Part shown: positions 4,113 to 43,971 of the stretch, piece after piece | Numbering within the stretch: the first letter of the stretch is position 1 | Layout: each line of letters begins with the position of its first letter | Assembly: GCF_020520425.1 (NCBI RefSeq) | Contig: NC_079487.1 | Span: 128,920,385 to 128,984,384, forward strand | DNA length: 64,000 nucleotides | Source: Spinacia oleracea | Lineage: Eukaryota; Streptophyta; Magnoliopsida; Caryophyllales; Amaranthaceae | Direction: 5' to 3' | Made by a program: the position numbers and the translations under genes | Notes under the pieces: generated by a model | What the model was told of the DNA's origin: nothing | Databases searched by the model: none | Seen by the model: the letters and a program-made list of their open reading frames with translations, nothing else

Positions 4113-4806
4113 TTAATCCCGCAACAAACTTGAAGGGAAACTTTTGCATATCTTGGACAAAGCCAAAGCTTTAACCATGTTAGATTTGGCAGCATCTAAA
4201 AGGGGGTCAGCCTGTAAAGCCTTATCAAAGCAGAACTTTGCTTCTTCGAACAGACCCTGAGCAACAAATACAAGACCTAGATTGTTGTAAGCAGGAGCAT
4301 ATCCAGGCCGAAGCTTAAGTGCTTTTGTGAACATTGCTTTTGCACTGTCATATTTCTTTTCCTGCCTGTAAAAATTCCCTAGGTTCGAAAATATTGCATG
4401 TGCTTGCTGAGAAGTAGCCAAAAGTAAGGCTCGCTTGAAAGCTTCCTCAGCTCGAGATGGTTCTTCTGCTAATTGTAGAGAGATGCCAAGGTTGGACCAG
4501 GCATAGCTGCATTCCCTAAATCGAGATACTGCAACTTTAAGGTACTTCTGTGACAATTTGAATTGTTGGGTGCGAAGACTATGGAGCCCTAACTGGTGCC
4601 AGTGCACGGCGTCATCTGGATCCTCTCCAATTGCCTATGGAACAAGAGAAGGCATTCTTGAGTTTTACATATCAAGCCAGTAAGCCACAATGGTCACTAT
4701 CTAAATTACTCTAGTTATTTGTAGTTTCTTAAAACATTGAGCCCAAAAAGTGTTGCTAGAAAGGGAAAAAACCAGGGTTCTTTGCAGAACTTAATCGGTT
4801 CAATAT

Positions 4807-4837
<31 letters not shown>

Positions 4838-7800
4838 GACGGGAAAGATCGGTACAAAATAGTTTTTTCCTCTAGTTTTGTTCTTTTTCCTTCTTTTACT
4901 GGGGGGAGGAGGCATTCTTTACTTAGCAATTTTCCAATTTATCAGCAGGTCTAGGTGTTTTGTCATGAAAGTATTTATTGTTGCGAGGCAAATGCAGTTG
5001 TAATCGGTGATTGTTTATACCCAATTATCCATCAAACATTACGATTACTGAATAACTAAATGCGGAGCAGTAGTTTATGGGTAACACTGACTAATTACAA
5101 GGTTCAAAGGAATTCAGCTGCAATAGATTTGTTCATCTATTTTAAAGTGGCCTCAAAAGTTCTTAAAAGTTAGAAAGCAAACCAAAATATCAGCCATACA
5201 CACGCAGACCTTATAGGTCGGCCAAAGGAGTGATGTATGGGCTAGATCCCAAGTCGATAACACATTGACTAGTTCATTTCTTTAAAATAAAATTAAAAAA
5301 AAAAAATTTGGAACAACTTGGAAGACTTTTATTTAACTTATAATAATAACCGCAGCATATGAACAGAAAGTCAGGAATAGTTTCACATCAAGCAGCTCTT
5401 ATATCACCAAATTGGTTATGAATTTACCTGCTTCAAGCTGCAAATAGCATGCTCTTCCACCTCCATCAATTCCTTCTGTTCAGTTTCAAATGCTGCTGCA
5501 ATCTCATGCTGAGCTTGGTGAACCATGGCAAGTCCAGCCCACGCAATTGGAGGATCAATCAACATAGGATCTGCTTCTCTAAGTATTGATGCCATCTCAT
5601 TTCCAGCCAAGGATACATGTTCAGTCGGATTTTGTGACCTTTCTGCATCTTTGATACGATGAACAGCAATAGAATATCGAGTAGACATACAGTTGGGCTC
5701 CAGTTTTGCTGCCTACAAATAGAAAGCAACATTAAAATTCACTTGCGAAACACTCAATAGTTTGGCCTGAACACAGATACTACTGAAGCTGAATACTTTC
5801 GGGATATCAACATAGACTTGTTCAAAGTAGACATCTGAGACCCAAAATACACGAACTGATTTTATCAGAAAGGTCAAATTCACCTTTTCCAAGCACTTGC
5901 TTGAGCTTCTATGATCTCCACTAATATCGTATGCATTTGCAAGATTAGCCCATGTATGAGCTGCCTTAGGATCTGCTTTGACAGCAGCTAACAGGCATTC
6001 CTTTGCCACATTGATTGCCGCTGCAGAATCCGACTCTGCACCAGCTTCCCCAGCACTGGCTCCAGCCCCTGACAATTAAAGTTAGATATTTACTATTTTG
6101 GTACCAGGCGACAAGACTACAGTATAACAGCTATATAAAATAGACTGTAGCATAAAAGATTTGCAATTGAACAAAAGCGAGAAGCAACAAAGAAACAGTT
6201 ATTTCAAACCTGCAACAGCTGAGCCATATTTGTACATCAAAATAGTAGCATAGTTGACAAGAGCACTGGGATGGCCTTGGTCTTTTAAAATTAGCTCCTG
6301 GAAACATTTTGAGGCAGCTTCCACATTCCCACTGAAAGTACGAACATGACACAGAAAAAAACCTTAGAACACCCGCATCATAAGATGACATAGTACATAT
6401 AAATAAAAGAATATTAGTTGCTGACAAGAATAGCACCAAGACAGCCAGTCAAGAAGCAAACCGCATGAAAGTATGGATCATCAATAAGACACTGACATTT
6501 AAATATACAATCTGGGTAAAATAATTCAATAATGTCCAACTGTCCATAATGGATGAAGACATCAATCACGTATAAAGTCTAAGTTTCTTTCTTTTTGTTT
6601 TTGTCTGAAACTTATCCATGCATTAAATTCAACATTCTTTACACGGAAATTCTCCACAATCAGTTTCCATAATCTACAAAAACCTTAATTTAACCTCATG
6701 TATACTGGAACACGTCTTGCAAAGAAGAACTGGTAAGCACTAGCACATGAAAGAGACAGTCTATTCCCTTACCTCAGCAAATGAGCAAGACCAAGATTTG
6801 CAAGGCAATCCAAGTTGTAAGGTGCCAAGGCCAAAAGAGAAGACATAACTGAAGTAGCACTCTAAAAGCATGCAAAATATTACACATCAGATCATTTGTA
6901 GAATTATGTTACAATTCCTGAACAGCACACTTTTAAATATAAGAAAATCTACCTCAACACGACCAGTTTTAAGAAGAATAATTCCCAGAGTATTCCATAC
7001 AGGTACTTGTCTAATATCTGACAACACTGATTCCTTCAGCTTCAAAAGAATTGCTTCCAACTCTTCAGTTTCAAGCTCTTTATCTGAAGCATATTCTCCA
7101 AGACTTTCTAGGAGGAGGCACTGAACAACAGGAAATGCAGCGATTTTAGCACAAGTATACATAAGGGATTCGGAGAGAAGGGCAGGGGAGAAATACGAAG
7201 GGACCAACTTCCCCCTCTTTTACAACTTGTTTGGATACATGGATTTAGGGAAGGGTTTATAGAACATTATGGGTGTGAGAGAAATGGAAGAATTTTTTTT
7301 TCCTGTATTCTTAAGAAATCAATCTCTCCAACATGATAAAGATTTGGAAGAAAATGAGAACACAAGATTTAATAACAGGGTAAAGACTAAAGACCATTCT
7401 CTTTCCTTACCAATCCTATGCTCTATTAATCCGATTTTCTCTCGGTCTCTCCTCCCTCGCTCACTTTTTCCTAAGATTGCGAGATGAGAATAAACCCTCT
7501 CCTTTCCTTCCCCTCCCTTATATCTTATGGTAACAAAACAGGAGAAAAAGTTCACTTTCCTTCCCCTACCTTTTCCTTCCTAGAGAGCTGCCAAACAAGC
7601 TGTTAATGAACAGAAACTGAGTTGGAAAGCTTTGGAAAGAGAAACTTTACTTTCTTTCTGCCCTCTCCTCCCCTTCCTCCCTTTCCCTCCCTGAATTCGT
7701 TACCCAAATACACTCTTAATGTAAATTACATTCTTAACTGAAACAGGGTTCAAGAAATTAGAACAAAAACCTGTGCATGATGCATTTGGACCAATGACAA

Positions 7801-10349
7801 CAACTCTGGTCTGTCAATCTCCTCATCAGAACGGAGTAAAATCTCCGCTGCCTTCTCATAGTCAAGCACTGCCTGAAAACCAGCTCTACAAATTAATCGC
7901 AAAAGCAAAATATATTGAGTTCAAACAAAAAAAATTGAGACGTTAAAGTAACCTTTTGAGGCTGACCCAATCGCTGGTACATTAAGCCAAGTAAAAAGTG
8001 AGCATGTGCATTTTTTGGAGCTTTCCTTGCCACATGTATCAAACCCTACAGACGCGAAAAGATTTGTAACGTTATAAACAGAAATAAGCAGGTAACCGAG
8101 GGATCATTATACAATAGCTAAAAATCATTATAGGGTCCATCAGAATTTCTTTCTTGACGGAAGTCTTAATCCATAATATGGGTCTAGAATTCAAGATATA
8201 TTTGGAAAAAAAACCAATACTACATTACTACCTCGATGATATTTCGATCACAACTTCTTTCTTGAAAGGAAGAATCCATATTACGGGTTTAGAATTCACA
8301 ATATGGCACCTACTCTGAAATAACCTTGAACATCTTCCTTGATAGCCAAGTTGCCAAATTTCCAATACTGCCTCGATGAGACTTCCATCATAATTTCTTT
8401 CTTGAACGGAAATATTAATCCATATTATATTATTTGGTCTAGATTTGAAGACATAGTTGTAAATTTCTACACCAAACCCAACAGAGATGATTCCGCAGTG
8501 CTTTCACATGAAGCAATCCAAGGTTTCATCATTACAAGATTTATCATTGATACATCTTTAATTCGGAAATCAACATCTAAGGTATTTTAGCTTCTAGGTA
8601 ATCACTCATCCCCTTTAAAAAAAAGCTTCTAGGTAATCATTTTACCCAAAAGAATTGATACAGGGGTCCTACAAATAAGAAACCTAAACCAAGACAATGT
8701 GTACAACTACTTCACAGTTTTCTTTTCTCTTCATGGCTTAACAATCCACCCACCTGAGCTATAAAACCCTACAAACCTTCAAAAACCTGACACCTACTCT
8801 AAAAGAACCTTGATGTTCCTTAAAAGCCAAGTTGTAATAGCATGTTTCATGAGAAACACCCTCAAAGAAGCAAAAAAAATGAGGAAGATGAAGAAAGCTG
8901 CTAGGAAGGCTCAAGAAACATCAGAGGGATGTCTCCTAGGCTTAGCCTGAAAGAAGCTTGATATTGTTCTTTTACAGCCCTATATACAGTGTCACAATTA
9001 TATACATTTTCAGCCTTTGGCATTTACTGTGATTCCGCCACGAACCCAGCGGCAGCAAAGACAAGAAATCTAACACAAGTATTTGTCTCTCCCTGGAACC
9101 CTTCAACATCATAATCCTTAAAGTGAAGAATGCACTAATAAAGTAATAGAATCGCAAAGAACAAGTAAAAGTAACACTTTCTAATATCTTTCCAACACAA
9201 CTTGCAGCTCAAAAATTGCGTGCTTGAAAACAACAACGACTAACACATTAAGAATCAACTCACAGTTTTAAGGCTGCTGACTTTCTCTTCTCTGGATGAT
9301 GGAGTCCCTTGAGAATGTTGATCACCCTCAGCATCCACCCCACAGTCAAGATGGTCTTCTTTCCCTGATCTTGAACGGCACTTCCCCATTTTGTTTAGCC
9401 TTTTAGCTTCACCTTCTAAAACATCACTGTTTTCTTTGACTAACAAAGGGAACTTTTCCTGACTATTCTCATTGATTATTAACCTGCATGAAATCTAATT
9501 TAACCCTCAAATAAACTGTTCACCAAATTCTACTGCAAATAGCTGAACAAAAACAACTTCGGAAAAAAACAATAACACATCGAATATTCCAGAATAATCC
9601 ATGCCCTTAAAAACCTCTATCTATCAATCACAATAGAACAATACTAGCTGAGTTCTTAAAGTCTCAGGGCAGTCCAGAAGTAAACCATTGTTCTTTGTGG
9701 CTCTCGGTACACCGGGGAAAAAATCAGAACAACAAAGGCACAAAGCCAAAAAGAACCAAGCATAGGGACCTCAATACCTATATTTAGCATGCTTAAGCAT
9801 TATCTGTATCATAACATAACATAGAGACCTCAATACCTATATTTAACATGTTTAAGCATTATCTCTATCATAATTTCATTTTCTTATGCACTCTTTAGCC
9901 AGTCTCTTAATTATTAATACCTATATTTAACATGCTTAAGCATTTTACTCCATCTTGTTCCAAATGGGTATCCAAAATCCCAAACAAACCTGAGTTTCTC
10001 CCCATTTTTTATGCTAAAAATTAGGTTTCAGCAACTGGGTAATAACCCAAATTTCCAATTAATCAATACTATGAAAAATGAAAAGAACCCATTGATAAAT
10101 GGGAAAACTGCCCTAATAGTGGAAAAAAGAGAAAATCCAAAAAAGAATTATTTTTTTTGCAAAATAGATTAATTGAAATTTGTACAAGAAAGAGAAGATA
10201 GAAAAAGACCTAGGAGGAAGAGGAACAGAAGGAATGAAGGGGTTAATGTCTTCTTCTTCAAATTCAGGAGGATCCACATTCAAGTCTGCCAAAACGACGA
10301 GTTTCATAGGATGTGCCCTCTTCTCTGAGCTTTCTCCGGTGGTTGACAT
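4113..10349 (-). CDS. TPR-repeat protein (At5g63200-like), 10 exons
   Basis: Exons, in order of transcription: 10210-10349, 9264-9483, 7953-8045, 7771-7872, 6953-7120, 6773-6861, 6210-6331, 5884-6068, 5428-5712 and 4113-4634. All junctions are GT-AG. The chain sums to 1926 nt, giving a 641-residue protein. The N-terminus (MSTTGESSEKRAHPMKL) is followed by an acidic DPPEFEEEDINPF segment. From about residue 120 there are tetratricopeptide helices. The last exon carries the clearest TPRs, such as AYNNLGLVFVAQGLFEEAKF. TPR solenoids are protein-interaction scaffolds. This family is sometimes labelled SPINDLY-like, but no glycosyltransferase domain is present, so no enzyme activity is claimed. 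The protein matches my memory of Arabidopsis At5g63200 (about 650 residues), whose neighbour At5g63190 is an MRF gene, as here. Introns 1, 2 and 4 contain repeats described separately. Confidence 0.88.
4811..4837. repeat. Poly(T) tract in a TPR-gene intron
   Basis: An uninterrupted run of about 28 T lies in the intron between 4635 and 5427. It is a mononucleotide microsatellite, so its exact length is uncertain in any assembly. Confidence 0.9.
7225..7720. mobile_element. Probable MITE-like insertion in TPR intron 4
   Basis: The left end reads TTGTTTGGATACATGGA followed by AGGGAAGGG. The right end, read on the other strand, gives TGTATTTGGGTAACGAATTC followed by AGGGAGGG. These look like imperfect terminal inverted repeats of a foldback or MITE element. 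The interior is purine- and pyrimidine-skewed (CTTTCC and GGAAAG). No clear target duplication was found. A similar AG-rich segment ending in GATCCAAACAA lies near 17790-18010 in the MRF intron. Confidence 0.4.
8130..8465. repeat. Three diverged direct copies in TPR intron 2
   Basis: A unit of about 110-140 bp containing CCTCGATGA, then TTTCTTTCTTGA, then GGAA..AATCCATA and TCTAGA or TTTAGAATT occurs near 8138, 8232 and 8371. A further partial copy of its tail (CACCTACTCT.AAA.AACCTTGA, then GCCAAGTTG) lies at about 8789-8834. The copies are well diverged, so the duplication is old. No coding function is seen. Confidence 0.7.
9768..9950. repeat. Three direct copies in TPR intron 1
   Basis: The phrase AATACCTATATTTA(G/A)CATG followed by TTAAGCATT occurs near 9774, 9834 and 9920. 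The first two copies share about 50 bp including ATCATAA. This is a local tandem or segmental duplication within the intron between 9484 and 10209. Confidence 0.75.
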
Positions 10350-10970: not shown

Positions 10971-11030
10971 AGATTAGATCTCAGGTCTTGAGTACCACAC
11001 CTCAAACTTTACCAACTAAGCTAGATGGCA
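10971..11030 (-). mobile_element. tRNA-derived SINE fragment (copy 1)
   Basis: Read on the minus strand, this starts with TAGCTTAGTTGGTAAAG, an RNA polymerase III A-box. It continues GAGGTGTGGTACTCAAGACC and then a degenerate B-box region (TGAGATCTAATCTC). The 3' part of the element is not recognisable. A second member of the family lies at 11490-11790 on the plus strand, interrupted by a MITE. Copy 1 is therefore the uninterrupted reference. Confidence 0.65.
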
Positions 11031-14491: not shown

Positions 14492-17400
14492 TTAAGAAGT
14501 TGCAGCCAACGAGCCATCCTCACCATTTGAATCAAAACCCGGCAGGATCCAGTTTCGTTTCTTAGCAAGCTCCATGTAAGATTCAAATTTAACCTGAGCA
14601 TTTGGAATGTCAAGTGCCAGGTCATCGAGCCCATCCTGGATACGAGCAAACCCTTTAGTCAACTGGTTGATCGTGATAAGCCCCTCACTGAAACACTCCT
14701 GAAGAAGATCAAGCATTCGGTCATTCTTCTTTTCCATAGCCATGATTAATGCTTTCTTCACAACCTCGTGGTTGAAGAAAGGCATCCCAAGATCCCTAAT
14801 GCACTGGCATGCTTCCCCAACAACACCTCCGCTCTCAAACTCTTCTAGAAGTTTCATTATCTTGTCCTTAGCATCTTCCACAGCCCACCCCGAGCCACCT
14901 CCCCAACAACGGAGGATCCTCTCACCCGCGTGCCGTGAGAAGACAAGTGATCTCGCCATATGTACAGTTTCACTTCCGCTACAGTTGGGTGGCAGCTTGC
15001 TTGCAATCTCATCGAGGTTAAGTGGGGCCAGAACATCATCAATCACTGCCCTAGCCAGGAAAAGAGCAAGCTCATTTGACGCATCTAAAATATCAAGTGC
15101 CGTGTCTTCAGCAGATTCTAAGAGCATTACAAAGCCATTCACAATATCCTCTGAGGAGAAAATCTCTATATGTAACCCAGAGAGAAGAACAGATGCCATC
15201 TCTTTCTCCCTGTTTTTCCGGTCCATGGCAAGGGTGATCAGCTTTTTCAGGAAAACTGGGTTCAACTCAGGGGCACCAAGATCTTGAAGACTATGAATGA
15301 GTTCAGGAATATCATCAGATAAAAAGTATTCATGAATAATCGTCACTATCTCCTCCTTGTACCGTTTCAGCTTCTCATCGTTGTGTTTTGGGAAGTCCCC
15401 ATCAGTAGTCAGTTTTGTAAATGAAGCATCAAGCCATCCTTCAGATATTGCCCTAGGAACAAAGGACTGGAACAGTGACCTGGCAGATGGTATGTCCAAA
15501 GAAAGGTCGTCAAGGCTCTCCTCAACCCGATAAAACCCCTTTATCATCTGACTCGTGCTTATAACGCCTTCTTCAGATGCTTCCTTCAACAACTTCATAA
15601 TGAGAGGTTCAGTTGATTTGGTCTCCATGCCAAGAATCAAAGCTTTCTTCACGACCTCGTGGTGGAAAAATGAAACACCCAGCTCTCTGATGCACCTACA
15701 GGCTTCCAATGCATCTCCATTCTCGACATATTCCCTCAACAGCTCAGCAATCTTCTTCTTCACTTCTTCGACAGTAAGGTGAGTACTGCCACCCCATTTT
15801 CGCTCTACGAGTTCCGCGTGGTGTGGAGCAGAGAGATAGCTCTTCTCGGCAATTTGAACAGCCTGAAGCCCCTTGGATGATTCCGGAAGATTTTTCTGAA
15901 CCCTTGTGACAAATGCCGGAGGAAGGATGTCATCAACAACAGCACGGGCAACATATAATGCAAGCACATTAACTGCATCAGGAATATCAACAGAGAGGTC
16001 ATCTGCAGACTCGAGCAGTAGAATGAAACCTTGACTGATCTGGGATGGACTGATGACATCTGCATAAAGATCTGAAAGCAAAACAGAAGCCATCTCTTTC
16101 TCCTTATCATGCCTGTCCATAGCCATTGACACAAGCCTCTTGATGAAATAAGGATGGTATTCACTTGATCCTAGTTCTCGGAGATCAGACGCAGCCACTT
16201 CAACCACACCATTGTTGAAATACTCCTCTATAATTGAAACCACAGCTTTCTTGTAATCATCCAAGGGGTCAGTGACGGTTGCTTCAACAAGCTTGTATGG
16301 CTCCTACAGGATTCAAGAATATTATTTGGTTCATGCAAGGATCAGACATCAAGTTTAAGTGTATAAAAACAAATTGTACTGGTAAATAATTAAACGAGGA
16401 CAGAAAAACCATCTACAAATTTGAATAATGTAATGCATCACAAGATGCTGCCAACTAAACTAAACAATTGACAGGTAGAAGAAATACCTCGCCACTATCA
16501 TAGTTAGGATCATTACGGTCAAGATGCGCTTCACACTCAGTATCAAGTAGCTTTCCCCAGCATCCCTTACCGCCAGCACCCTCTGAAAAAAAGAACAGAA
16601 GCAAAAAAAGCTCAGGGAAACAACATTGAAGGAATATCATCCTATGAAGCATACTATATTTATTACCTTTAAAGAGAAAAATATTAATGATTTCAACTGC
16701 ATGAAAAACAAATAAAGATAGAGGGGGGAAGGAGATATTTGAAGGAGAGGAAAAGCATCAAAAAAGCTAAAGTATAGAAACATATATGGACTAGCTGCTA
16801 TAAAAACAACCATTTTAGCTGATTCAGCTATACTGGAAGTAAAACAAAGAAAGTGCACAAAGTGCATGCTGTTAATTTAATTTTTTTATGCAGCATCAAC
16901 ATAGACAAGTTAGAAATGCACGTTTTTTTAATAGAAAGAACATGCCTAACGACTGTAGACCTATCCACAACTATTATAAACCACCATGCCCACAATGCCT
17001 TTATGACGTCATATCCCAATACGTGAATGAAGTTCTACAAAGAAAATTGCAATTAATCCAACAAAGAACTGAAGATGCCTTAGAAATTTAGAATCTTAAA
17101 CTCATGAAAGGAGCATAATCGTACTTCCTTTGTTCCTTCAATGCAACAATTTCTGTCCTAACACGGTCAGCATGGGAACTCTTGTGCAAAAATTACCACA
17201 TGTTTGAAATATAGTCAAATCATTAGGTCAAACCCTTTATCCTCTCTTGCTTTATACATGTTTTGTGGAAAGGCGACAAGCACTTTCACGATATTGAACT
17301 ATTGATCTTTGATATATTTAATTCCAAGCATATGGCTACAAAAGGAACAATTAGACAAAAAATGGTTCTCTTTCATTCCATGCATTCCAAATTGACTGTC

Positions 17401-19972: not shown

Positions 19973-20700
19973 TTTCAAGCCCTGAAACCTCACATGATCA
20001 TCACCACCACTACTCATCAAAATCCATGTCAAAATAACATTCATTCAACTTTCTTTGAAACTTCTATAACTCTCAACAACAAAATATTCAAATAAAGAAA
20101 TATTGTCGGAAAATCCTAATAAATGCATAAAAAATAAAATATCTACTTACAACAACTTTATCATTTATCAGCATCAAAGGTTTCAAGTAATTCGCATTTT
20201 TCTGGAATAAATTAACACAAATTCTAACGTTCCAAACACACAACACATGTGGAAATGCAATTATATTACTAAAAGATTAAAGCAAAAACAAAGAAAACAA
20301 GATTGAAACAAACAATTACCTCAAATTGATTACAACAGCATAAAAAGCCTCAAAAACTCCAACAAGAACCGATCGAAATCACGAAGAAACACTAGCCAAA
20401 ATCCAAACTCCAACAATCAAACCGCCGCAAATTTCTCCTTCCCTCCTGTACTTGGCCCGGATCTCGAGCCAAGACAGACGAAAATAAAAAAAAAAGAGAT
20501 ATCACCAAAAAAATCCGCAAGATCTTCGGAATGAAATGGAAGAGAGAGAAAAATGGATGAATCGGAAACCCTAAAAAATTGGGTAAGAAATACAGCAATG
20601 AGGAGAGAGAAAGAGAGGGAGGTGTGGTGGTATGTGTCTGTGTCTGAGTGTCGTTCTAATCGGTTTTTAGGAGAAAACGGATGAGAATGAAAATGGAGAA
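19973..20700 (-). other. 5' UTR region of the MRF gene
   Basis: The leader appears to be spliced. Donor-like sites on the minus strand occur at about 20320 (GAG then GTAATT) and 20152 (GTTGTT then GTAAGT). An acceptor-like TTTCAG stands just upstream of the start codon at about 19980. Long spliced leaders are common in MRF genes. The exact exon set needs transcripts. Confidence 0.45.
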
Positions 20701-27060: not shown

Positions 27061-27494
27061 TTCTTGTTCACTGGAAATCTCACACCTTTTTTGCACAATC
27101 AATTAAACTTCAGATTTTACGAATCAGTAGTTATTATCATAGTCTGGAGCTGAGTTTCAGTTGGGCATTTTGTCGAACAGTTGGTGTGCAAGCTCAAAAC
27201 ACCTAGAACTTCAATATCAAAGTACACAAAAGCCTACTCAGCTAATAATCCCGTATGCATTGCAATCAATATAACCTCACCTCAATATAACCTCACCTGT
27301 TTCTGATTTCTGAAGCTCCCACGATAACTCTCTCTCTCACTCTCTTTCTCTCACGAGGTATCAGAACGCAGCAGTTTGTATCACCTCTTCAGGGGAAGCT
27401 AAGAAAGGGAATTCCAAACTGTAAGTAACGGTTAATATTTTGACCAAATTTTAGCTGGTTGACGGTTGAATGAGAAAATACAGTTGGACAATTA
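27061..27494 (-). promoter_or_regulatory. PPR gene leader and promoter region
   Basis: A CT/TC microsatellite at about 27328-27355 (GA/CT motif on the minus strand) lies 270-300 bp before the start codon, where plant genes often carry Y-patch or GAGA-type core promoter elements. No TATA box is evident. Confidence 0.4.
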
Positions 27495-28717: not shown

Positions 28718-31700
28718 CTACACCATGTTTGGTCTTTGTGGCAACAATAGATTGTAGAACTTATCGGCTAAGAAGAAACTCTTTCCCTTGCTATCAACAG
28801 CCTTTTTCCACCCACACCAACCACCATTTACGATTTTCTTAAGATCTTCACCACCAGTGTAATGAGGATCCAATATTAGGAATGCACAATCACCACTTGC
28901 ATCATTGTAGTCAACTCCTAGAAGTGTATATGCGAGGACACCACCACCTGCATTTGTTCGGCAACTCGGATTAAGAAAGGCATATAGTTCTATTATATGC
29001 ATTAAGTGACAAAAGAGCTTGGCGGTGAAAGCAACACCATCTTGAAAGTTATAAGTATTTCATAAGCCATCAAGACTTCAAGAAAACTTCTTAAAAAATA
29101 CTGACAATTACTATCTTGTGGTTAAACAAAATGACGAAGAAAGAACCTAGGAAATGACTGCAACACATGCTTAGCTTGTAGTGCGGCAGACACTCAAGAA
29201 GGTTGGTGGTTAGATGTTTATGGTGTTTAACAGTAGGCTGCAGTTATGCTTGCATGAAACCAGTAACACGGCCACTAGGAACTATCTTTATCTAAGATAT
29301 TGACATCTTCAAATGATGGCTCAGTACTTTTACAAAGTGGATCATACAAGGGACTCAACGAGACTATCATGTTACGGTGAAAAATCACTGACATTCTATT
29401 CATGATTTTGATAATTGGATACCAGTTTAATACTAATTGCAATTTACTGTTAATTTCCTCAGGGTAACTCCCTAACAAGAGACAAGCAGGTGCAAACCAC
29501 CCTCTCCAATCCCTTATCACATATTCACATGCAATACTAACACAGATGAGAAAACATGTGAAGAGGATGCCAAAAGTTTACCAATCATGATGGGTGTTCC
29601 TTGGTTCTCAAAATGCAAGGCTAACTCTCGACATTTCTCAGGAAGCTCAGCTCCAGATCTTACATTCATGACCTTGCAGGTAACCTGTTAGACAAAAAAA
29701 AAATGTCTTTGGCACTTATTTGATATTCAATCATATAATACAGATTACAGAATACAGATACAATAGCTTTCACTTTTTGGGGAGGATGCATGTGTATACG
29801 TGTCAGCCTGTTTGTGCTGCCGATGTTGCCGGTCGGGGGCGGGGGGAAGGGAGCAACTAAACAAAATGCAATATGAACAGTTAAAAATTTTCGCCTCCAG
29901 GACCAGTCATACATGTGCTTTTCTTTTGAGTTTAGTTGTAGCCATTTCACCAACTCAACCTTGCAACAGAAGATTCATTGGAATAAGTGTAAACCCTCTC
30001 AAGAATTGATGACGAAATCATATCAATCTTGAATGAAGTTTTTAAAACTCATAGGGGTTCAAATTATAGTAGGGATGGCAATGGGCAGGGTCTGGATAGG
30101 GTCTAGTAATACCCGGACCCGGACCCTAACTTTTTGACATATACCCATACCCTACCCTTACCCTATAGGGTCTAAAATTATAAGACCCTTACCCGGACCC
30201 TATGGGTCCGACAGGGTATGGGTAGGGTCTAGGGTCTTATGCGGGTCCGCGTAAAACTATAACTTTTATTTCCTTTTTTGTATGCAATTATATGTAATAT
30301 GCAAAAATAATACAAGAACAACGATTAATAAGGCATTTAAAAACAAATAAATAGCTAGTCTTCAAAAATTATCCTTGTCTTTCCTTAAACACAATACATT
30401 TTAAAGTACGAATCTCATAAATTACAAAATCCCACATTCTTAACTACACAACATTAATGTTAATAAATAGGCATCCATTCAGTACTTTAGTAGTAGTTAT
30501 CGTCAATATCATCATCTACTTCATCATCAAGATCCAACAAAAAAAGTGAAGTACATAAAAATAACAAAATTTAAGCGGGTCTAAATATAGGGTATGGATA
30601 GGGTATGGGTCTTAAGGGTCCGCGGATAGGGTATGGGTAGGGTACGCAAAATGATTTATCCACAACTTATGGGTATGGGTCTTAAGGGTCCGCGGGTAGG
30701 GTATGGGTAGGGTATGGGTATGGATAAGTCATTTTGCGTTCAATAACTTGTCCACAACGCAAAATGATTCACAAGTCATAATTAAAGGGTTGCTATCCAT
30801 CATCTCCAAAAGATGGAATAAGATTATACTTCCTCCGTTCCGCAATAGATGTATCGTTTCTCTTTTGGACACTATTCATTAACTAACTTTGACAATTATT
30901 CTTTCACATTATGTAAAAACAAACATAGTCAAGTGAGATTTTGTTAAATTCGTATCAATGTGAGGATTCCAAATATCAATTTTTTATAATTTTACTTACA
31001 CGCAATAAGAGATATTAAAGTTCAAAGATGCATGTTGGGTACGTGAAAAAAGAAATGATGCATCTATTGCGAAACGGAAGAAGTAAGAGTTTTCTTTACC
31101 AATATTAGACCACAAAGAAAAAGAATCATCAAAATGAAAATAGACATGAGCTCATATGGAACTGAAGCAAATAAGTATGGAAAGTTGACCATCACACTTA
31201 CACCCAAAAGTTTGTCCAGCACATAGCTTAACTCAATGGCACCAATCCACTCACGTGATCCAATGAAAGAAGGATCTTTATCACCAATCTCGACTAGTGC
31301 CTCCTGTATCTCCCTGAGCAATATAACACAGAAATACGCAACCTCCAATAATCAAGATGCTGACATCATACGAGTGATCATGGCCAAGGAAATAAATCTT
31401 GATAACCCCTTTAGCCTTTCTCACCTATGAGTGGGAACATCAATTGAAGTATATTGTTGGAGTCTGAACCAGGAGATTATGGTTTGTAACGAGCGATAAG
31501 CACATCCCCATCCCTAGCACATTATTTCAGAAAATAACTTGTCAACGAGGAAACAAAAATTATGGCAAGAACAGTTGTGTATTTCAGAGCCACCCTCCTA
31601 CATGTTTCCTAAACACTTTCCCCTTTTCCCCGTATATACAAATGAACAACGATAACAGTTTACAAAAAAAAAAGGTAATTAACCAACGGTTCCCGCTCAT

Positions 31701-34700
31701 CTTCCATTTTCCAAATATTCTATGCTATATCTCATTAGAGCATAACAACTTAGATAACTTCAGGCATGGTATAATGTATATTGGCACTTAGGCAGGCATA
31801 AGCGTATGTGCCTGATTAAAAAGTCAGGAATCAAGTTCTATAGGTGCGACATCACAGCCTACCAACACCTGCATGGCTGTATCTAACTTAAAAGTGCACT
31901 TGAAAATGTCCAGAAGCTGAGCAGTTTACTAAAAGGTGGACAACAGGAAAATAAAATGTGAACAAACTTCATTAAATCAAAACTCAAAAATATATTATCC
32001 GTCTACTATAGGTGTATCAAACTTAAGAAAGGTTCTACACATCTCTAATCACAGAAAATCCAAACCTTTTCAATAGCCACCACACTAATACCTCACCAAT
32101 ATTTGGTGAGGTTGTTAGGAACCCCCTCTAATCTCACCTTTACATTTAACACATGTTCATACCGTATTTATTACATGGCCTTGATGTTTACTCCGGGTAT
32201 AATTAATCATTAACACTGCATCATATTCATGATTATATAACTAATAACAGACAAAAGAAATTTCATTACCGAGTCATCGAAACCGTTTTGAAGGTAGTGG
32301 TGATACTCATAAGAGCCTTGAACCAGAGACACGAGGCCCCCAGAAACTGCATATAGAATATTCAAATGTGACACAAGTAATCATGGATAGGTCAGTTTAC
32401 AGTAAACAGTCCTGTAGTAAAAGTAATAATTAAAAGTTACTAACCCCCACTGCTAGGAATGTCAGCATGTACATCCTTCAGCAATAAATAACCTAAAGGC
32501 ACAAACAAGATGCCTCCAAAAAGTTAGTGTGTCCAGAGAGGAAACTACAAGGAACTCTACCAATACTTCTTCCATCAATTGAGGTAATATTTAAAAGTAC
32601 ACAGATGGCAAGACAGATGAGAAGAAGATGAGATAACAGCATAATTTACTTTAAAAGGGGGTAATTAAAATCAACGAAGCAAAAGACGTAGTCAGTTAAC
32701 TCAAAAGTACAATACTTACCCCTCTTGGATGAAATCCCTTCATTGGAAGTGGACTTGGCAACTTTTAGGGCATTGGCAATTCGTAAGAGAGGGCGATCAG
32801 AAGGTAAACCCAGTCGAAGATGAAGAGACCTCCTAGCTTCAACTGTAAAAACAGATTGAATATATATGAGAACACTACAGAAACGAGAAGAATATATCTC
32901 ACATATTTATAATTAAACACAGGCTATTCCCCATATGTTTGGGGTTGAACCTTTGATCAACTGAGTAGGTGGAATTTGGAGCCAGAAGCCCAGCCTTGGC
33001 ACCTCAATAACTCAAAAGTTATAATATCTAATGTTATCAGCAAGCTTGCCTGGGTTTCATATAAATGAGCTAGCTTGGTGTTCCCACTCAAACTTTATAA
33101 CAGATCTTTACATACCTTGCTTCAGTTCTGTCTCACCATAACTCAGTTCATAAGTAGCTGTTATGGGGTGCAAAATACCAGGAGGACAAAAGTGGAATGG
33201 CCGTATCTGCAATTACAAACAACCATGGAAGAAAACGAGTTCAAATAAGAGAAGAGAGGCATGCTTAAAAAAATCACTTCAAAGAAAAAAAAAACAAATA
33301 AGAATCTGTTTATAGTTAGAGCAATGGGTACAAAAGCAATCACTATTACAGCACATATAAGAAAGCAAAGAAATTTTAATGTAAACCTAATTCCGAACAG
33401 AAGAGTTTGTATACAATAAAAAAAATCTAGTTCCATACACATATATGCACACCAAAAAAAACCCAGAAAATGGAGCCGGGCACAACTTTTATTGAAGCAC
33501 AAAGTTCAAGGAAATAAAATATCTAGTTTGATTTCAGTACAATGTTGAGTGTGTCCATTCAGTATTTAGCATAACACAACCAATCAAAGAGAAAGAAACA
33601 AGATCTGCAAGTAGAGAAGAAAAGGAAACAAGGAACTCCATGTCTCAATTGCAGTATACACATATTGACATATGGAAGAAGATTGATAAAAGAACCATAT
33701 TACACATAAGGACATAAATGTCCACAGCAGAAAACAGATCAAAGGCAGCTAATAAATGGAAAAGGAACCCGAAGATAAACACCACACCAATCGCTCGGAA
33801 CAAACTGAAATGAAGTAACTTCAAAGTATAACGGCAAGAGGTAAAAAAAAACAAAAGAAAAAGGCCATGTTATCACAGAAACCATGAGAAAAATATGGAA
33901 CAGGCACTAACTGAAGAGTGACAAATGAAACAGGTATCATAGGAGAGAAGAATATAAATGTTTATATAGTATTGTGAAGATCCCCATTTTTGTACAAGCT
34001 AAAAAACGGTTTAACATCAAAAAATCTATACAAGTAATATCCTACCTGAGGATGTTGAACTAAGAAAGAGGGTGCCACAATGTTTCTCATAGTTGTTAGC
34101 TGGTCAAGTAGTGCAGGAATAATTAGCTTTGAAACTGCATGTGTGAGAGGAAGACTTTTGACAGCATAACAAACAACTTCCAGTTTGTAATCGACAAGCC
34201 TCAGTATCGCTTCCTCTGGAGCTGAAAGCATAAGAAATTATAGTTATAACTTATAAGTTCACAGATCGCAAGCATTTTTGCCGTTGCGGAAACTGATTGC
34301 ATCAACCAGATTAAAATGAAGGGAGAAATGTCAATACCAGGACAATACTCTGCCATTGGCGCAACAGATTGTGGGGACATGATTGACTTATTTGAGAGGG
34401 CAGTCACCTGAATAGTATCTGCACTCTAAGCAAAGAAAGTATAAGGAGAAGAATTACCCTTGCTGATGATCAGCATTGATAGAAGCCAGAAACAGTGCAT
34501 TAATTTAGAACCTGTAATAATTACTCAATGAGCTCACATCCAGAGAAAAGGCATATCAAATTCATTACCTCAGCATCCACAGCCGGTTTACTCTCTAAAC
34601 AGAAGTATGAACAACATAATGACTTTCCATCAGACTTTTCCGCGGTGTCATCCAAAAGCTTACTATTGGAGATGTCTGTTTGGAACTCCAAATCTGAACC

Positions 34701-36744
34701 ACGAACAATAACAGGACGAGGTAGAACACCTGACGACTTGTCCGATGCTTCCAGGATGAATGTGAGTTGAGGATCTCTGAACATGGTGGCTAGTTCTTCA
34801 TTCGCTTGCAGATATCGGTCCACCGCATCTGAAGTACACCAAGGTAGTCCTTGTACTTAGAAAAGTAAAAACTCCAACATAACTGATTTTCAGTAATAGG
34901 TATCAGCCAATTGACTGAACTTATCACTGACTATTAATCTATATGTTAGGGATCCGACAAAATTTTACAGAGATAAAACAAACAAACATGTAATTGTTCT
35001 TAATTTAGGAATGTAAAACAATCTTCTAAACTTTCTCCAAATTTGAGAAATTGTTTTTAATAATAGACGGATGTGGCAGTTAGGGATGTCAATGAGCCGA
35101 TACGCTCGTGAACAGCCCATGAACAAGCTCGGTCAAAGCTCGTTCATTTATAGATAAATGAGCCTGAACAAAAAATTTAAGCTCGTTTAATAAATGATAC
35201 TAGCTCGAACAACCTAGTGTTCGGCTCGTTTAGGCTCGCGAACAACTCGATCATGTTCATTTTCAAGCTCGTTCATGTTCGTTTATAAGCTCGTTTAAAA
35301 GCTTGTTCAAGCTCGTTTACATTAAATTTCCAAAAAAAAATATGACAAATTTTTATTTATAAGTAAATATAAGTTGCAATTAGTTTGTTAGATTTTGATT
35401 TTTAGGAGATTATAATTTAAAAAATGGTACAAAGTATTAGTTAGTATATTGTGCTAGCCTTTTCTTTGGGTATGGTTATGTTTTTATGTTTTATAATTGT
35501 TTAAAATAATATTTCATTTATTAATATGCTCATTTAAATTCGATCTTGCTTGTTTATTAAGGCTCGTTTGTTAAAAGCTCGTTTGTTAATAGTTCGGCTC
35601 GGCTCGAGCTTGAACTTAAACAAGTTACTCGTGAGCTAAGCTCGAACAACGAAAAACTTAAATGAGCTAAGCTCGAACAAGGAAAATGAAAGCTCGGCTC
35701 AAGCTCGAGCTCGGAAATTTCTTATCAAGCCTAGCTCGAACAGCCAAATATTCGGCTCCGCTCAGCTCGTTGACATCCCTGTGCATAAACTTGATGGACA
35801 TGGTCTCATTTGAGTTTGCAGCAAGTCAAGACCCTCTTTACTGAATTCAACAATAAATCCCCAATCGTTACTCAATTAACTCATTTTTCACCTTAATTTC
35901 AGTAATACACCCATCCATAGATATATTTTGACACACATATAACATTATCAACTTAAATATGATTCTTACAGTAATAGCAACACCAAAATCAAATAGGTCT
36001 TGCAGCAATTGAATAGTGCACGCAACATCAATGCAATAGGCATGATTCAAACATCACAGCATTGTCACCAAATTTTCAGAAAATGAAATCAACATTGCAG
36101 CAATAATTTCAAATCAAAATTTCCAAAATCTTAATTTCATGAATTAAAACAAAGTAGCAACAATTTCAGACAAATTTTTTAGTAGAAGTACCTGAATCAT
36201 TATTTGCAGGAACATAAACAGGTAACTTGATAGGAAGTTCACATTTCAGCATACAACCTCTCTCCCAAAGATAATTCCCCGCCTTCTCCTCATACAATAC
36301 ACACTCAACATCCTCCACATTCGTCGAATCCCCCCATTTTGCAGCGAAGAACTTCAATTCACCGCTACTCGAACCCGAAACTCCGCCAATTACATCAAAG
36401 TTCCTCAAATTCTCTCCATTATACAAAATCTCCCTCAATTTACAAGCAGCGTTGATCGCCTGCTTGGCAATTTGTACCAATTCGCCATTTTTCCCGATAA
36501 TCAGAGCTCCGATTACATGAAAACCTTTGATTATGAGTGACCTGAGATCGTCCGCCTCTTTGGAGAAATCAGGAGAGAGGAGATCGGACGGCAAGTAGTG
36601 AAGACATCGGACGGTGGAGACGACGGTGAATTGAGGGAAAAAGGGTGATCCGATCAGCCATTGGAGAGGTGCATCGTAATTGTTGGTGAGGATGAGCTTA
36701 GGGCATAAAACCCTAACACTTTTGCCGTTATCCATCGAGGGCAT
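28718..36744 (-). CDS. UFSP2: Ufm1-specific protease (peptidase C78), 12 exons
   Basis: Exons: 36192-36744, 34569-34828, 34338-34425, 34046-34221, 33116-33206, 32720-32842, 32445-32492, 32270-32346, 31425-31513, 31202-31313, 29582-29684 and 28718-28947. They join in phase to 1950 nt, giving 649 residues, close to the length I recall for the Arabidopsis enzyme. The C-terminal half is the C78 cysteine-protease domain. It has YEYHHYLQ, then [13 protein letters not shown] with the catalytic Cys476. The Asp600-Pro-His602 pair lies in ILDPHYTG, followed by [11 protein letters not shown] and the hallmark C-terminus [11 protein letters not shown]. The enzyme matures the ubiquitin-like modifier UFM1 and removes it from substrates such as ER-bound ribosomes. 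All catalytic residues are present, so it should be active. The start at 36744 gives [13 protein letters not shown]; the Met at 36735 is an alternative. Introns 1 and 10 carry transposons. Confidence 0.94.
30071..30800. mobile_element. GGGTATGGGTA-rich non-autonomous element in UFSP2 intron 10
   Basis: The left end reads AGGGATGGCAATGGGC. The right end, read on the other strand, reads ATGGATAGCAACCC, so both resemble hAT-type ends of plant non-autonomous elements. Inside, near both ends, are arrays of GGGTA, GGGTCT and GGGTATG words (30090-30250 and 30585-30730), with an AT-rich middle. No protein is encoded and no clear 8-bp duplication was found. The intron is 1.5 kb, and this element plus a neighbouring MITE make up most of it. 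Confidence 0.55.
30829..31083. mobile_element. Stowaway-type MITE, 255 bp, in UFSP2 intron 10
   Basis: CTTCCTCCGTTCCGCAATAG on the left pairs with CTATTGCGAAACGGAAGAAG on the right, and TA flanks both sides (30827-30828, 31084-31085). The interior (CATAGTCAAGTGAGAT, then TTGTTAAATTCGTATCAATG) matches the element at 49504-49756, so the two are one family. The right end stops about 120 bp from the next exon. Confidence 0.88.
35081..35781. mobile_element. hAT-like non-autonomous element in UFSP2 intron 1
   Basis: The left end TAGGGATGTCAATGAGCCGA and the right end, read on the other strand (CAGGGATGTCAACGAGCTGA), form terminal inverted repeats with 16-17 of 20 matches. Inside, the word AAGCTCG with GTTCATGTTCGTTT recurs many times at both ends (35100-35330 and 35560-35770) around an AT-rich centre. 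This is typical of plant hAT-derived elements with subterminal repeats. A convincing 8-bp target duplication was not found, so the element is probably old. Confidence 0.7.
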
Positions 36745-39322: not shown

Positions 39323-42300
39323 TTACTTGGCTGTAGTACAAGGAAGAACCCATTCTACAAGATGTGATCTTTGCCGTTGATGCTTCATTTGCCAACCCTG
39401 CAAGATCGAGCAATGTTTCTAACTTAGCATTACATAAGCCTAACATTGTGAATATGTTTCAACAGATTCTGTTTCATCCCTATTTTACTTGAAGTCTTGA
39501 ACAATCTGATTTAACTAATTCTGTCTCCTTGTGCTTACCTTCTTCATTGAAAAAGGCGGTGTTTTCCAGCAATGTGACTTCGAGTCTTCCATTTTTCTGC
39601 AAGAAATATGATGATGTACATGTTATTTATCAGGGACTAGTCAAAAAGTACTGGACTGAAGTTTACTAATTATAGCAGAATACAGCACCAACTCACCCAT
39701 CTTCATGCTGTGAAATGTCACTTTTGTTACTACCATTTCTTAACACGTAAGGATAGTCGGTGCAGATATATGCATCAAATGATGCTTCCCTACTGCTTGC
39801 TTTTGGCTGGACTTTTAAGCACAGTAATTCAGAAGACTCTGACGATGTCATTTTTTTACTGAGTCTCATGTTTTTAGGGAAGCAGTTAGGCTGAACTTCT
39901 TGCTCTTCAACGGTTAAAATCTTGCATACTTTCTCATGCTCACTCGACATGCTATCTTGTGACACTCTGTGAGGTGTCGATGCACCAGACTTTGCAGTAC
40001 TTAGTGCATTTCCATCGCTGTTTCTGATAATAGTAACCATTCTGTGGCTGCATATATGAGATACCTGGGACCCACAGGATGAGCAAGTTTCGACATGCTT
40101 GTTGTCTCCTATCATAGCTTTATCAGAAGTGAAATTGGAGGCATCTGACAATCGATCACTTCCATTTTCAGTAGTATTTGACTTGTGAATTCTGCGAGAA
40201 CAGCTAAACAGACTGAAAGATGGTCTCTTGGATTTGGCATAACTATGAGAGAGATTGATCCTAAGCTCCACGTTGCATTTTAGAACGGATTGAAGAGAGC
40301 TTGCAATAAGTTTCCATGAGTTCTCTGCCTTTGATGCATAGTTTGGATGATCAAATTCTAGTTCAGCCACAGCCAGATCTGTGTATGGTTATAATATCAA
40401 TGACAAGTTAGCAAAATCACATATCCCTTCTTAGTTCAACAACCTTTTTCAAGAAAATACAAGCACAGATTGGTCAAGGATTTAGCATTTCATAAACTGG
40501 TTTTGAGCAGAATACAATTCCCATCCTGATAAATTAATTATTCACTCTGAAAATTGCAACAATAAAACACGAGTCCCCAGATACAGTAAGTGAAAAGAAC
40601 TGCCAGGGATCAAGTGGAGTTAGCCATCAATGGATGTCTGATTAACAAATCTGGAATCCTATTTGAGTTCTACTCCAGATTTTCCTAATTTTCAGAATTT
40701 TCTGCAAACAAAATGCTCAAACTAATTGACAGCTACTTTTCCGACTAAGAATGGTACCAATGAATCACCAGTATTTTGTGCAATGCAAGTCCAGTAATTT
40801 CTCAATGAGCTGATAGTCTCAAGCCTCGACATTAAAATATTATTAGCCCTGTAAAGGCGGATCATTTAGACCAGTCTAACAGAACATGAGCATAACATCT
40901 GCTGGGGCCCAGTCGGACCTGACATTTTCTTACAGCATACACAGTTGGGGTTCGTGCAAAATACTCACCAGAGGCACATAATCATGATTACAAATTCTCA
41001 ATTAATCATGATTACAAATTCTCAATCAACTAAACAGGAATATCACAGACAAAAGTAACAAATTCAAATCATCTCGTTTTTTACTAAACTTCTCAAGAAA
41101 AGACTTCTTATCCTTTCAGAAAGACAGATCTCAGAAGTGTACCAAACTCCAAGTTACGTTAAATGTTTGATCCTCAAATGTTGACTAGCAGAAGAAACAT
41201 AATCACTGGTTCAAATCGGCACAGAGAATGGTGAAGAAAACTAAACAAGCAGGAACCAAATGCGTGTAGCATAACGTGTAGTAAAATACAGTCCTGACGT
41301 GAGCAGAGGTGTAGTGCAGCAGTGCAGCTTTATTGCTCACATGAAGCAGATGGAAATGAAGAACATGTCAAATAGTTGTCGGAAAGTCTGATTATATACT
41401 CCTAGCCACTTTAAGAAATTGTGAGACAATATTAAAGAAGATGGATTTACCTTTCTTGACCCTAACAGAAGAGAGCCTCCCTCGTCTCCGTAGAAAGCTC
41501 CTTAGTGAATGTGAGTGGCATATTTCAGTGGCTCTGATCCATATTGATTCAAGAGCACCTTCACATTCTCCTTGTGCCACCATTTTTCGCAATTCTTCAT
41601 CAGCGCAATCATATGAGACAAGATGCTTTGATCTCTCGCCAAGGGATGCTGTACTGCTACAGTCGCCATCTGCAGCTGAAGAATTTGATACAACATTTTA
41701 CTGATCAGTTAAGTACCATTGAGCTGGATTAAGCATGATCTTGGTTTATAAATAAGGATAGAAGTAAAACCAACCTTCAGAATTTGAAGTTCTTACAGAT
41801 AACCTGGACTCGTTAGGATCTGAGAAAGAGGGATCTGTAGAATTCAATTGCAATAGAGCTACAGTAAGCCATGTAGTTTGATTTTTGGACACCCTCAGCT
41901 GTTTCTCACTTTCTGATAATATCTTCAGTGCGTTACGAATCTTCTGCATATCTGTCTCTGCTGTAAAACAGCATCATTCAACATAAGTCAAACAGAAAAC
42001 TACATTTTGGAAGTCAATTGTCATCAGAGTAGTATCAGTAGAATAATTCTTGCAAAGAATCTTCCATTACTATAACCATTATGGTCACTCATTGATAATA
42101 TAAGATAGTCTAATGATTCTAGATTACTTACAAGCATGTCTTCTCATGAAATTCCTCCGAATTTCAGAGTCTTCATCCTGGAACTTCCCGGCTAGAATAT
42201 CCATTATGATATTGGCTAGTTGGGATATAAGTTGCATCGGGTCAATCCTCGACCTCATCAATTCCCTTGCCCTTTTAACTGTATTTGAAGTGTCCGCGGA

Positions 42301-43971
42301 CAGAGACAGATCAAGTAAGTCAAGCAGCTCGTCATCTGAAACAGTTCCAACCTGCAAAAATGTTGAATTTCAGTCCAAGCACAAAAAAACAAGGCTTCAA
42401 AAGAGTGTCATATAACTCACAAGTTCATAAGCTAATGTCTTAGTAATCTTGCTTCCCAACATACTCAGCTGATCAAGCATCATTTCACCATCTCGCATTG
42501 AACCATTCGATTTGGAGGCAATAAACTCCAAAGCAGCCTGATCAAACTCAATTCCTTCTTCCACACAAATATTTCCTAGCCTAAATGTAACATCAACATC
42601 CTTTAATTTTGGAAAATGGTATCTATGAGACCGTGCAACCACGTTTCTTGGCAGCTTATCCAGGTCTGGGGTGACCATAACAAAGACAGCATGTTGAGAG
42701 AAACTCTCCATGTTGCTCAAAAGAGTTGCCCATGTATCACTTCGAATCAAATGACATTCATCCAAAATAATGACCTTAAATTTCGAGGAGATTGGAGGTA
42801 AACTAGCACTTTTAATGAAAGATCTCATCCTACCAGCTCGGTTTATTCTCACAGGATCAACTTCCTTAACATCCCTACTCCTACCCGCGAAATACAACAT
42901 GCATTCTTGACATGATCTACACGGCCTTTGCTCGTCTAGTGAGAGACAATTTAACGCAGCAGCGAATATCCTTGAAGCAGAAGTCTTTCCAGCACCACGA
43001 GGACCATGAAAAAGATAGAATGTGGTTATCCTACCTTTCAAAATAGCACCCAACAATGACCTTGTTGCCACACCTTGTCCAATTAACTCATCAAACGATT
43101 TTGGTCTGAATTTCTGACTTAAACTCCTAGGACTTTCAGAATATGGAACAACTTCATTGTTAATGTGCTTCCAACTTCTAGTTCCTGACATAATATCAGT
43201 ATCACCTGTTTCCCCTGATATTAGTGGATACTCTTCTCCGTCAGAAGCGAGAGATGGGTCTCTATATCGAGGGGTTTTTGACCAACAACACGTTATCCCA
43301 CATCCACGATATTCCTCGTCTAAAGCATCAATCTCTTCATTTGCAAATAGTGATGCACTACGTGTTGATCCGTCTAGCAACGTGTCACTAGCACAAAGAG
43401 ATGGACTGCCTCCTCGGCTTACAAAATCACCTAATGACCCAATTGACCCCTTACATCCTCCATAAGACTGATTTCGAATTGGAGTAGACCTCGTTGAACC
43501 ATGATTTGAATCAACACCCTTAAATGGATCATTGGAAGGAGAAACACAAGCTAACTCTAATCCATTATCCCTATATTCACTACCATATTTCAGACTAGGT
43601 GATTTGTCATCACCCTCATGTTTGCCTTTTGTTCCTGATTTTCCAACACTCTTGCTTACATTAGACTTAGAAATGGATTTAGGAGTGTACTCCTTCGATT
43701 CGAAATCCATGACATTTTCATCTTCTTCTTCTCCACATGTACCTAAAATTTTACTCAAATCCCAATTATTGCTTAAATTACCCTCTTGACAACCATTCCC
43801 AAACCTCAAAGAAATCCCATTACAAGAATTAGTATCCCAATGTAAACTATCAACTATAGAAGAGAATTTACTCATGGAATGAGTTGATGGATCCCTCAAT
43901 GACCTCACCCTCCTAAGAGCCACCAAGGTTTTTGATATCGGTACATCAACCGAATGCCGCCGCCCCTCCAT
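39323..43971 (-). CDS. STICHEL-like 2, DNA polymerase III gamma/tau-type AAA protein
   Basis: Exons: 42421-43971, 42132-42351, 41775-41960, 41451-41669, 39697-40378, 39539-39596 and 39323-39397. They join to 2991 nt, giving 996 residues. The protein begins with the family signature MEGRRHSVDVPISKTLVALR. It carries a CGITCCWSKTPRYR segment and then the clamp-loader-like ATPase domain. That domain has KFRPKSFDELIGQ, Walker A GPRGAGKTS (323-331), a zinc module with Cys342, Cys351, Cys354 and Cys357, and Walker B IILDEC (401-406). Next come LLDLLDLSLS..NTVKRARELM and the three-helix region LRVSKNQTTWLTVALLQL. The C-terminus, SHLVEWVLPC, is typical of the family. Plant STICHEL proteins act in cell morphogenesis (trichome branching) although the domain comes from bacterial replication factors; the role of this member is not known to me. 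The gene resembles Arabidopsis At4g24790. Exon 4 may use two acceptors six bases apart (CAGCTGCAG). Confidence 0.92.

Follow-up and report, generated by a model that had tools for sequence, protein, structure and literature searches.

A gene block kept at one spinach locus very probably accounts for the neighbours of several Arabidopsis MRF genes

The closest described system is fractionation after whole-genome duplication (WGD), known from comparisons of the Arabidopsis alpha and beta blocks with a less duplicated outgroup, in which genes of consistent order are split over several Arabidopsis segments. The spinach (Spinacia oleracea) locus analysed here is alike in this respect, and also in that one anchor gene, MRF, is common to three of the Arabidopsis segments. 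It does not differ in kind, its particulars being a single spinach locus and the placement of EMB1006 on a fourth copy. MRF genes make up the plant PDCD4 family, MAT5-MAT8, and the MRF gene found here likewise carries four MA3 domains; grape is listed with two genes of this four-MA3 kind, and the spinach genome also has two (PMC3850090, in the part of the paper available). The spinach assembly spans ~894.3 Mb, with 98.3% on six chromosomes, and is derived through the gamma triplication; in the accessible text of the same paper, the terms searched for a later duplication gave 0 occurrences (PMC8668906). In what follows, the window is the whole 64-kb stretch of DNA analysed, which lies on C1. 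It is very probably part of an old gene block, kept in spinach and split over four Arabidopsis segments by WGD and gene loss.

The initial annotation had described a row of five genes between positions 4113 and 43971, and Pfam domains and motif boxes bear this out: all five were located on the minus strand, arranged as TPR, MRF, EMB1006-type, UFSP2 and STICHEL-like (4.1-44.0 kb; Table 1), and the span corresponds to the distance from the TPR stop to the STICHEL start. In the Pfam search, the last coding exon of the TPR gene gave 15 listed families, with TPR models nearly throughout, and the 5′ exons probably belong to the same gene. The large exon of MRF contains four stretches of PF02847 MA3 (E 2.2e-122), and motif pieces in two upstream exons (16542-16562 and 19730-19762) extend the gene to ~20.0 kb; its closest solved relatives are chains labelled programmed cell death protein 4. 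The sequence search assigns the third gene to the PPR family, and we take it to be EMB1006 (At5g50280); its next-best genome match is 30% identical among the 95 of 869 candidates scored. UFSP2 belongs to Peptidase C78 by its domain together with a Cys box (GWGCAYRS, 31490-31513) and an Asp-His box (LDPHYTG, 28853-28873), the box patterns being those we presume for this family. Further Peptidase_C78 stretches occur at C3:8.09 Mb and C1:65.93 Mb, so that UFSP2 cannot be taken as single-copy. The last gene combines the DnaA_N-like STICHEL domain with a DnaX-type AAA domain (DnaX N-terminal model E 5e-75; Walker A at 42979-43005), which places it in the STICHEL family, and it has three matching places in the genome.

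Table 1. Genes located in the window, with positions numbered from its first nucleotide
Gene	Position	Strand	Evidence and remarks
psbY (photosystem II protein Y)	2176..2757	-	PF06298 PsbY, E 3e-13; just past TPR, outside the five-gene span
TPR protein gene (At5g63200 type)	4113..10349	-	Multi-exon; last exon 4113-4634; likely start 10317-10349
MRF / plant PDCD4-like gene	14492..20044	-	Large exon 14492-16303 (four MA3), small exon ~16.5 kb, N-terminal exon 19.7-20.0 kb
EMB1006-type PPR gene (At5g50280 type)	23575..27102	-	PPR families, E 2.5e-75
UFSP2 (UFM1-specific protease; At3g48380 type)	28718..36744	-	PF07910 Peptidase_C78 exons; 5′ limit putative
STICHEL-like gene (initially annotated as STICHEL-like 2, At4g24790 type)	39693..43971	-	PF23007 DnaA_N-like_STI in two exons, plus DnaX-type AAA
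40S ribosomal protein S4 (RPS4) gene, 3′ exon	53950..54642	-	PF16121, E 5e-26; PF00900, E 8e-21
ARID-type gene start, cut by window end	62768..63976	+	PF01388, weak match (E 0.007, below the curated cut-off) to an incomplete piece; FKPPKFYG at 63929-63952

Since AGI numbers run in chromosome order, adjacency in Arabidopsis was read from the numbering. The gene identities behind the locus numbers given in the initial annotation agree with those in published papers, as far as the available text of these goes, and CP31B is published as At5g50250 and CP31A as At4g24770. The presumed pairings CP31A/CP31B, BT1/BT2 and PLL15/PLL19 follow the names used in papers. A literature search by locus number, limited in its reach, returned no explicit published statement that these Arabidopsis genes are adjacent, nor a paper naming alpha pairs of these loci.

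The block reading was tested in the window's own 894-Mb genome, where the other genes that flank MRF in Arabidopsis should lie near the block, each on a side specified beforehand. All four informative predictions (pectate lyase, TAZ, CP31-type and JmjN) were borne out. That is, a pectate lyase gene (PF00544) lies at C1:129,009,060, 45 kb past STICHEL, and a zf-TAZ gene at C1:129,041,284, 77 kb past STICHEL, both on the predicted side, while a REF6-type JmjN gene, whose top solved relative is Arabidopsis JMJ13, lies at C1:128,899,671, 25 kb past TPR and again on the predicted side. The TAZ and JmjN genes are likely counterparts of BT2 and REF6, judging from their families and positions rather than from paralogue trees. 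The genome-wide top CP31-type match is at C1:129,187,127-129,188,869, 223 kb past STICHEL and on the same side as the pectate lyase (84-88% identity with an approximate query sequence; E 6e-47, as against 4e-20 for the next locus). It is 178 kb from the pectate lyase, whereas the two adjoin in Arabidopsis, so the expected nearness holds loosely; moreover, in-frame stops were counted in two of its three matched stretches, which may reflect exon edges or decay. For GET4 (At5g63220), which should lie towards TPR, neither the genome nor the controls returned a match, so that this prediction carries no weight either way. For ABC1 (which we take to be At4g24810/At5g50330) the nearest stretches are 252 kb off in the direction predicted; with 58 stretches in this large family the result is ambiguous, and no support was counted from it. 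SRP72, presumably At1g67680, was a later guess from the At1g67 segment and not among the predictions set beforehand; it was found not near the window but at C3:0.94 Mb and C2:109.30 Mb. Because the C2 match is ~9 kb from a pectate lyase match, the At1g67 segment more likely corresponds to C2.

That the genes were joined independently in spinach, the Arabidopsis neighbours being coincidental, might be entertained given the strong chromosome rearrangement and repeat expansion reported for this genome (PMC8668906, in the part available). Against this, the four further neighbours predicted from Arabidopsis lie on the predicted sides, with uniform one-sided chances of ~0.00017 to 0.00075 each, uncorrected for gene clumping. 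Furthermore, when 158 unrelated control loci were scored for six families in the surrounding 250 kb, 5 loci had one of them and none (0/158) had more than one. At the MRF locus five of these families fall inside that distance and the remaining one is at 251 kb, a count that includes STICHEL and Peptidase_C78, both already part of the original finding. Coincidence is therefore a practically negligible explanation. Neighbours that are scattered in Arabidopsis are linked in a single segment here, and when AGI numbers are set against C1 positions, all four Arabidopsis segments (one with two genes only) are consistent in order with C1, since BT-PEL-MRF-TPR, BT-UFSP2-MRF-REF6, CP31-PEL-STI-MRF and CP31-EMB1006 are each subsequences of the C1 order.

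The ancestral order was very probably close to CP31 / BT (BTB-TAZ), pectate lyase, STICHEL-like, UFSP2, EMB1006, MRF, TPR and REF6, a block that spinach retains in one place. In the Arabidopsis lineage, two later WGDs (beta and alpha) would have produced up to four copies, from each of which single genes were then presumably lost. At5g63160-63200 would have retained BT1, pectate lyase, MRF and TPR; At3g48360-48430 would have retained BT2, UFSP2, MRF and REF6; At4g24770-24800 would have kept CP31A, pectate lyase, STICHEL-like 2 and MRF; and At5g50250-50280 would have kept CP31B and EMB1006, with MRF gone. Here we infer that the four segments arose as WGD copies, that each flanking gene is an exact counterpart and that genes were lost rather than moved. 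The ancestral-block claim of the initial annotation, including different losses from different Arabidopsis copies, is supported in its main part. Its clause on EMB1006 probably does not hold, although it allowed for this gene, as an exception, having entered or left the block, because At5g50280 is three locus numbers from CP31B, the partner of CP31A, which is itself three numbers from the At4g24800 MRF, and because the top CP31-type match lies near the block here. EMB1006 is best read as a survivor on the fourth Arabidopsis copy, the one without MRF.

One Arabidopsis MRF gene has been dated differently. From distribution and tree, At3g48390 (MAT7) was read as a recent copy, the newest of the family, its subclade being confined to Arabidopsis and Capsella and absent from B. 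rapa and Thellungiella (PMC3850090, in the portion available), so that a dispersed copy which arose after the split of Arabidopsis and Capsella from Brassica would sit beside UFSP2 by chance. The present evidence is instead that of gene neighbours. MRF and UFSP2 are close neighbours in spinach as well, separated there by the PPR gene. The At3g48 segment further carries BT2 and REF6, and their likely counterparts lie on either side of the block in spinach. A random landing of MAT7 in exactly that gap is unlikely, and a loss from Brassica and Thellungiella would be the simpler account. The block thus speaks against MAT7 as a recent copy and for an older, duplication-derived one, and we regard the recent dispersed origin as improbable.

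It may also be asked whether shared function keeps the genes together, as a translation-linked cluster in which MRF, UFSP2 and RPS4 act on ribosomes or initiation. MRF belongs to the PDCD4 family, RPS4 is a 40S protein and UFSP2 acts in UFM1 processing, which is linked to ribosomes. However, the three genes are separate in Arabidopsis, the pectate lyase, TAZ, PsbY, STICHEL-like and REF6-type genes have no known task in common with these three, and the genes lie several kb apart, each with its own start. We therefore consider a functional cluster very improbable.

Some genes lie beyond what the Arabidopsis MRF loci would lead one to expect. PsbY, RPS4 and the ARID gene are in the block here and absent from the Arabidopsis MRF loci, which counts against the block reading; RPS4 sits between STICHEL-like and the predicted neighbours, and the Arabidopsis MRF loci give no explanation for it.

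Searching the spinach genome for four-MA3 MRF genes gave two places, the window and C6:88.02 Mb (53% identity). When 200 kb around the C6 gene was compared with the 64-kb window (frames of at least 35 residues, E up to 1e-4), MRF and a few repeat-like matches were shared, and among the listed places of the six tested families none was within 1 Mb of it. We therefore do not read the C6 locus, which has none of these neighbours, as a duplicate of the block.

Arabidopsis PsbY is At1g67740 (PMC10418774, in the part available). It adjoins another pectate lyase (At1g67750, PLL16), and spinach has a PsbY at the MRF block. In a wider and tentative reading, which we think possible but rather unlikely as a whole, the block predates the gamma triplication and was resolved differently among eudicots, PsbY would have been lost from opposite gamma copies if C2 is without PsbY, and the published date of MAT7 is wrong. 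If such opposite losses of PsbY were true, gene trees of single-copy genes of this kind would compare hidden paralogues.

The process behind the split block, fractionation, is ordinary and well known, and this locus is a clean example of it. One locus of a less duplicated genome accounts at once for the genes that flank three MRF loci of Arabidopsis and for those beside EMB1006, in a compact and testable way. The published date of MAT7, as the newest MRF gene and younger than the Brassica split, becomes directly testable by gene order, and the block helps to pick the true homeologs among the MRF copies for the genetics of TOR-linked translation control.

The gene names and coordinates of the initial annotation agree with the genes located in the window, which spans C1:128,920,385-128,984,384. 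The identities behind its Arabidopsis locus numbers likewise agree with passages of the published papers; At5g50280 is taken to be EMB1006, and At3g48430 is presumably REF6. That is, passages of these papers give the four PDCD4/MRF genes MAT5-8 as At4g24800, At5g63190, At3g48390 and At1g22730 (PMC3850090), UFSP2 as At3g48380 (PMC7515635), the TPR protein as At5g63200 (PMC9102059), STICHEL-like 2 as At4g24790 (PMC9732028), the PPR protein as At5g50280 (PMC2944999), the pectate lyases PLL15, PLL19 and PLL16 as At5g63180, At4g24780 and At1g67750 (PMC12693861), BT1 and BT2 as At5g63160 and At3g48360 (PMC7848006), CP31A and CP31B as At4g24770 and At5g50250 (PMC6419579), GET4 as At5g63220 (PMC8644595), PsbY as At1g67740 (PMC10418774) and JMJ12 as At3g48430 (PMC9029850), a number that also occurs in REF6 papers (PMC6457497, PMC6739875), in agreement with that identity. 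No explicit statement of adjacency for these Arabidopsis genes was found in the paper passages. AGI locus numbers follow chromosome order, and the genes are therefore taken to be neighbours.

Genes of the window (plain positions), neighbours beyond its ends on the same contig (C1), and further matches in the genome
Feature	Position	Strand	Remark
ABC1, nearest stretches	C1:128,668,571-128,672,546		252 kb left (beyond TPR)
JmjN	C1:128,899,671-128,899,772		25 kb left
psbY	2.2-2.8 kb (2176-2757)	-	adjoins TPR gene
TPR gene	4.1-10.3 kb	-	
MRF/PDCD4-like gene	14.5-20.0 kb	-	
EMB1006-type PPR gene	23.6-27.1 kb	-	
UFSP2	28.7-36.7 kb	-	
STICHEL-like gene	39.7-44.0 kb	-	
RPS4	54 kb (from 53950)	-	between STICHEL and pectate lyase
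ARID-type gene	start at right window end	+	between STICHEL and pectate lyase
Pectate lyase	C1:129,009,060-129,009,491		45 kb right (beyond STICHEL)
TAZ	C1:129,041,284-129,041,544		77 kb right
CP31-type	C1:129,187,127-129,188,869		223 kb right
MRF copy	C6:88,021,759-88,023,516		
Peptidase_C78	C3:8.09 Mb		
Peptidase_C78	C1:65,931,787-65,932,026		two stop codons inside
TPR, last exon	C5:929,725-930,026		stop codon inside
SRP72 and pectate lyase	C2:109,304,815-109,314,545		~9 kb apart

When AGI numbers were compared with C1 positions, all four Arabidopsis segments were order-consistent with C1: At5g63160-63180-63190-63200 (BT1, pectate lyase, MRF, TPR), At3g48360-48380-48390-48430 (BT2, UFSP2, MRF, REF6), At4g24770-24780-24790-24800 (CP31A, pectate lyase, STICHEL-like 2, MRF) and At5g50250-50280 (CP31B, EMB1006). 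None of the four segments holds both BT and CP31, so the comparison covers the order of each against the other genes. From the shared BT1/BT2 and CP31A/CP31B pairs we infer that the segments pair as alpha partners. The last segment would then be the expected fourth copy of the block, in which EMB1006 would have been retained and MRF lost. The initial annotation had treated EMB1006 as an exception that may have moved in or out, which is probably wrong, as At5g50280 lies near CP31B (At5g50250) in this presumed fourth copy.

If the block is ancestral and was split among Arabidopsis loci, as the initial annotation proposed, neighbours can be predicted from Arabidopsis. Before searching, we predicted that the right side, beyond STICHEL, would hold a pectate lyase and perhaps a BTB-TAZ gene, and the left side, beyond TPR, either GET4 or a JmjN gene of REF6 type; CP31 close to the pectate lyase (right) and ABC1K (left) were added later, likewise ahead of their searches. 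The genome searched comprised 894,210,420 bases in 242 contigs, six of which (115-189 Mb) sum to 879.2 Mb (98.3%). Pectate lyase (18 matching stretches at 15 loci genome-wide), TAZ (6 stretches) and JmjN (6 stretches) were all found on the predicted sides. HAC proteins also carry TAZ domains; judging from their span, the three TAZ stretches of 258-261 bases, including that of the block, would be of BT type and the other three, of 210-222 bases, of HAC type. The open frame holding the block JmjN has Arabidopsis JMJ13 as its best solved relative (E 3e-45), which places the gene in the JMJ11/12/13 type. The CP31-type match, obtained with an unverified query sequence, consists of three stretches of 84-88% identity, with in-frame stops counted in two of them; it is the genome's best by far and is near the pectate lyase only in a loose sense. 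The four informative predictions thus held, CP31 loosely, whereas ABC1K was ambiguous (the nearest of 58 stretches was not counted as support) and GET4 was uninformative: no match occurred anywhere in the genome and the controls were likewise empty.

Uniform one-sided chances for the four matches were 0.00075, 0.00052, 0.00017 and 0.00025. Because genes are clumped, a control was added with 158 unrelated gene loci taken from matches listed in the PPR, ABC1 and RRM searches, merged within 50 kb and excluding those less than 1 Mb from the window. One of six families lay within 250 kb of five control loci (pectate lyase 2, TAZ 1, JmjN 2) and two or more of none, while the MRF gene had five of the six, with CP31 at 251 kb. 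STICHEL and Peptidase_C78, two of the six families, were themselves part of the finding, and CP31 was entered as a single top match; independent evidence therefore comes from pectate lyase, TAZ and JmjN and, as a weaker control, from CP31.

The four Arabidopsis segments leave unexplained RPS4 and ARID, in the interval between STICHEL and pectate lyase, and PsbY, beside TPR. Arabidopsis RPS4A (At2g17360) and the ARID gene At2g17410 presumably likewise lie near each other. PsbY, next to TPR in the window, adjoins a different pectate lyase (At1g67750) in Arabidopsis, which may be what remains of an older copy of the block, at the gamma level. SRP72, considered afterwards as a further neighbour on the basis of the At1g67 segment and without a prior prediction, failed, not being near the block. 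The SRP72 and pectate lyase matches on C2 are likely the counterpart of that segment.

Two four-MA3 genes were found in the genome, the same number as in grape in the table of PMC3850090. The C6 copy is 53% identical to the window MRF and has an intact open frame in a repeat- and retroelement-rich stretch; within 200 kb around it, matches to the window were limited to MRF itself and repeat-like sequence, and a motif search of 19 kb found no counterpart of the small upstream exons of the window MRF. It may be of MAT8 type. A third, weak MRF match (30% over 153 residues) lies on C2. UFSP2 cannot be called single-copy, because Peptidase_C78 stretches occur at two further places, that on C1 perhaps a decayed UFSP-type fragment. 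A partial second copy of the last TPR exon, perhaps decayed, lies on C5 (78% identity over 74 residues).

Passages of PMC3850090 suggest that MAT7 (At3g48390) arose after Arabidopsis and Capsella split from Brassica, on the basis of subclade members in Arabidopsis and Capsella only. The UFSP2-MRF order, in a segment where BT2 and REF6 are retained as well, fits instead an old copy that arose by duplication and would later have disappeared from Brassica and Thellungiella. Fractionation, that is, gene-by-gene loss after whole-genome duplication, is treated as established, e.g. in passages of PMC4675067. This mechanism is long known; the locus adds a tidy new example and contributes two small points, namely where EMB1006 belongs and an objection to the MAT7 date that can be tested.
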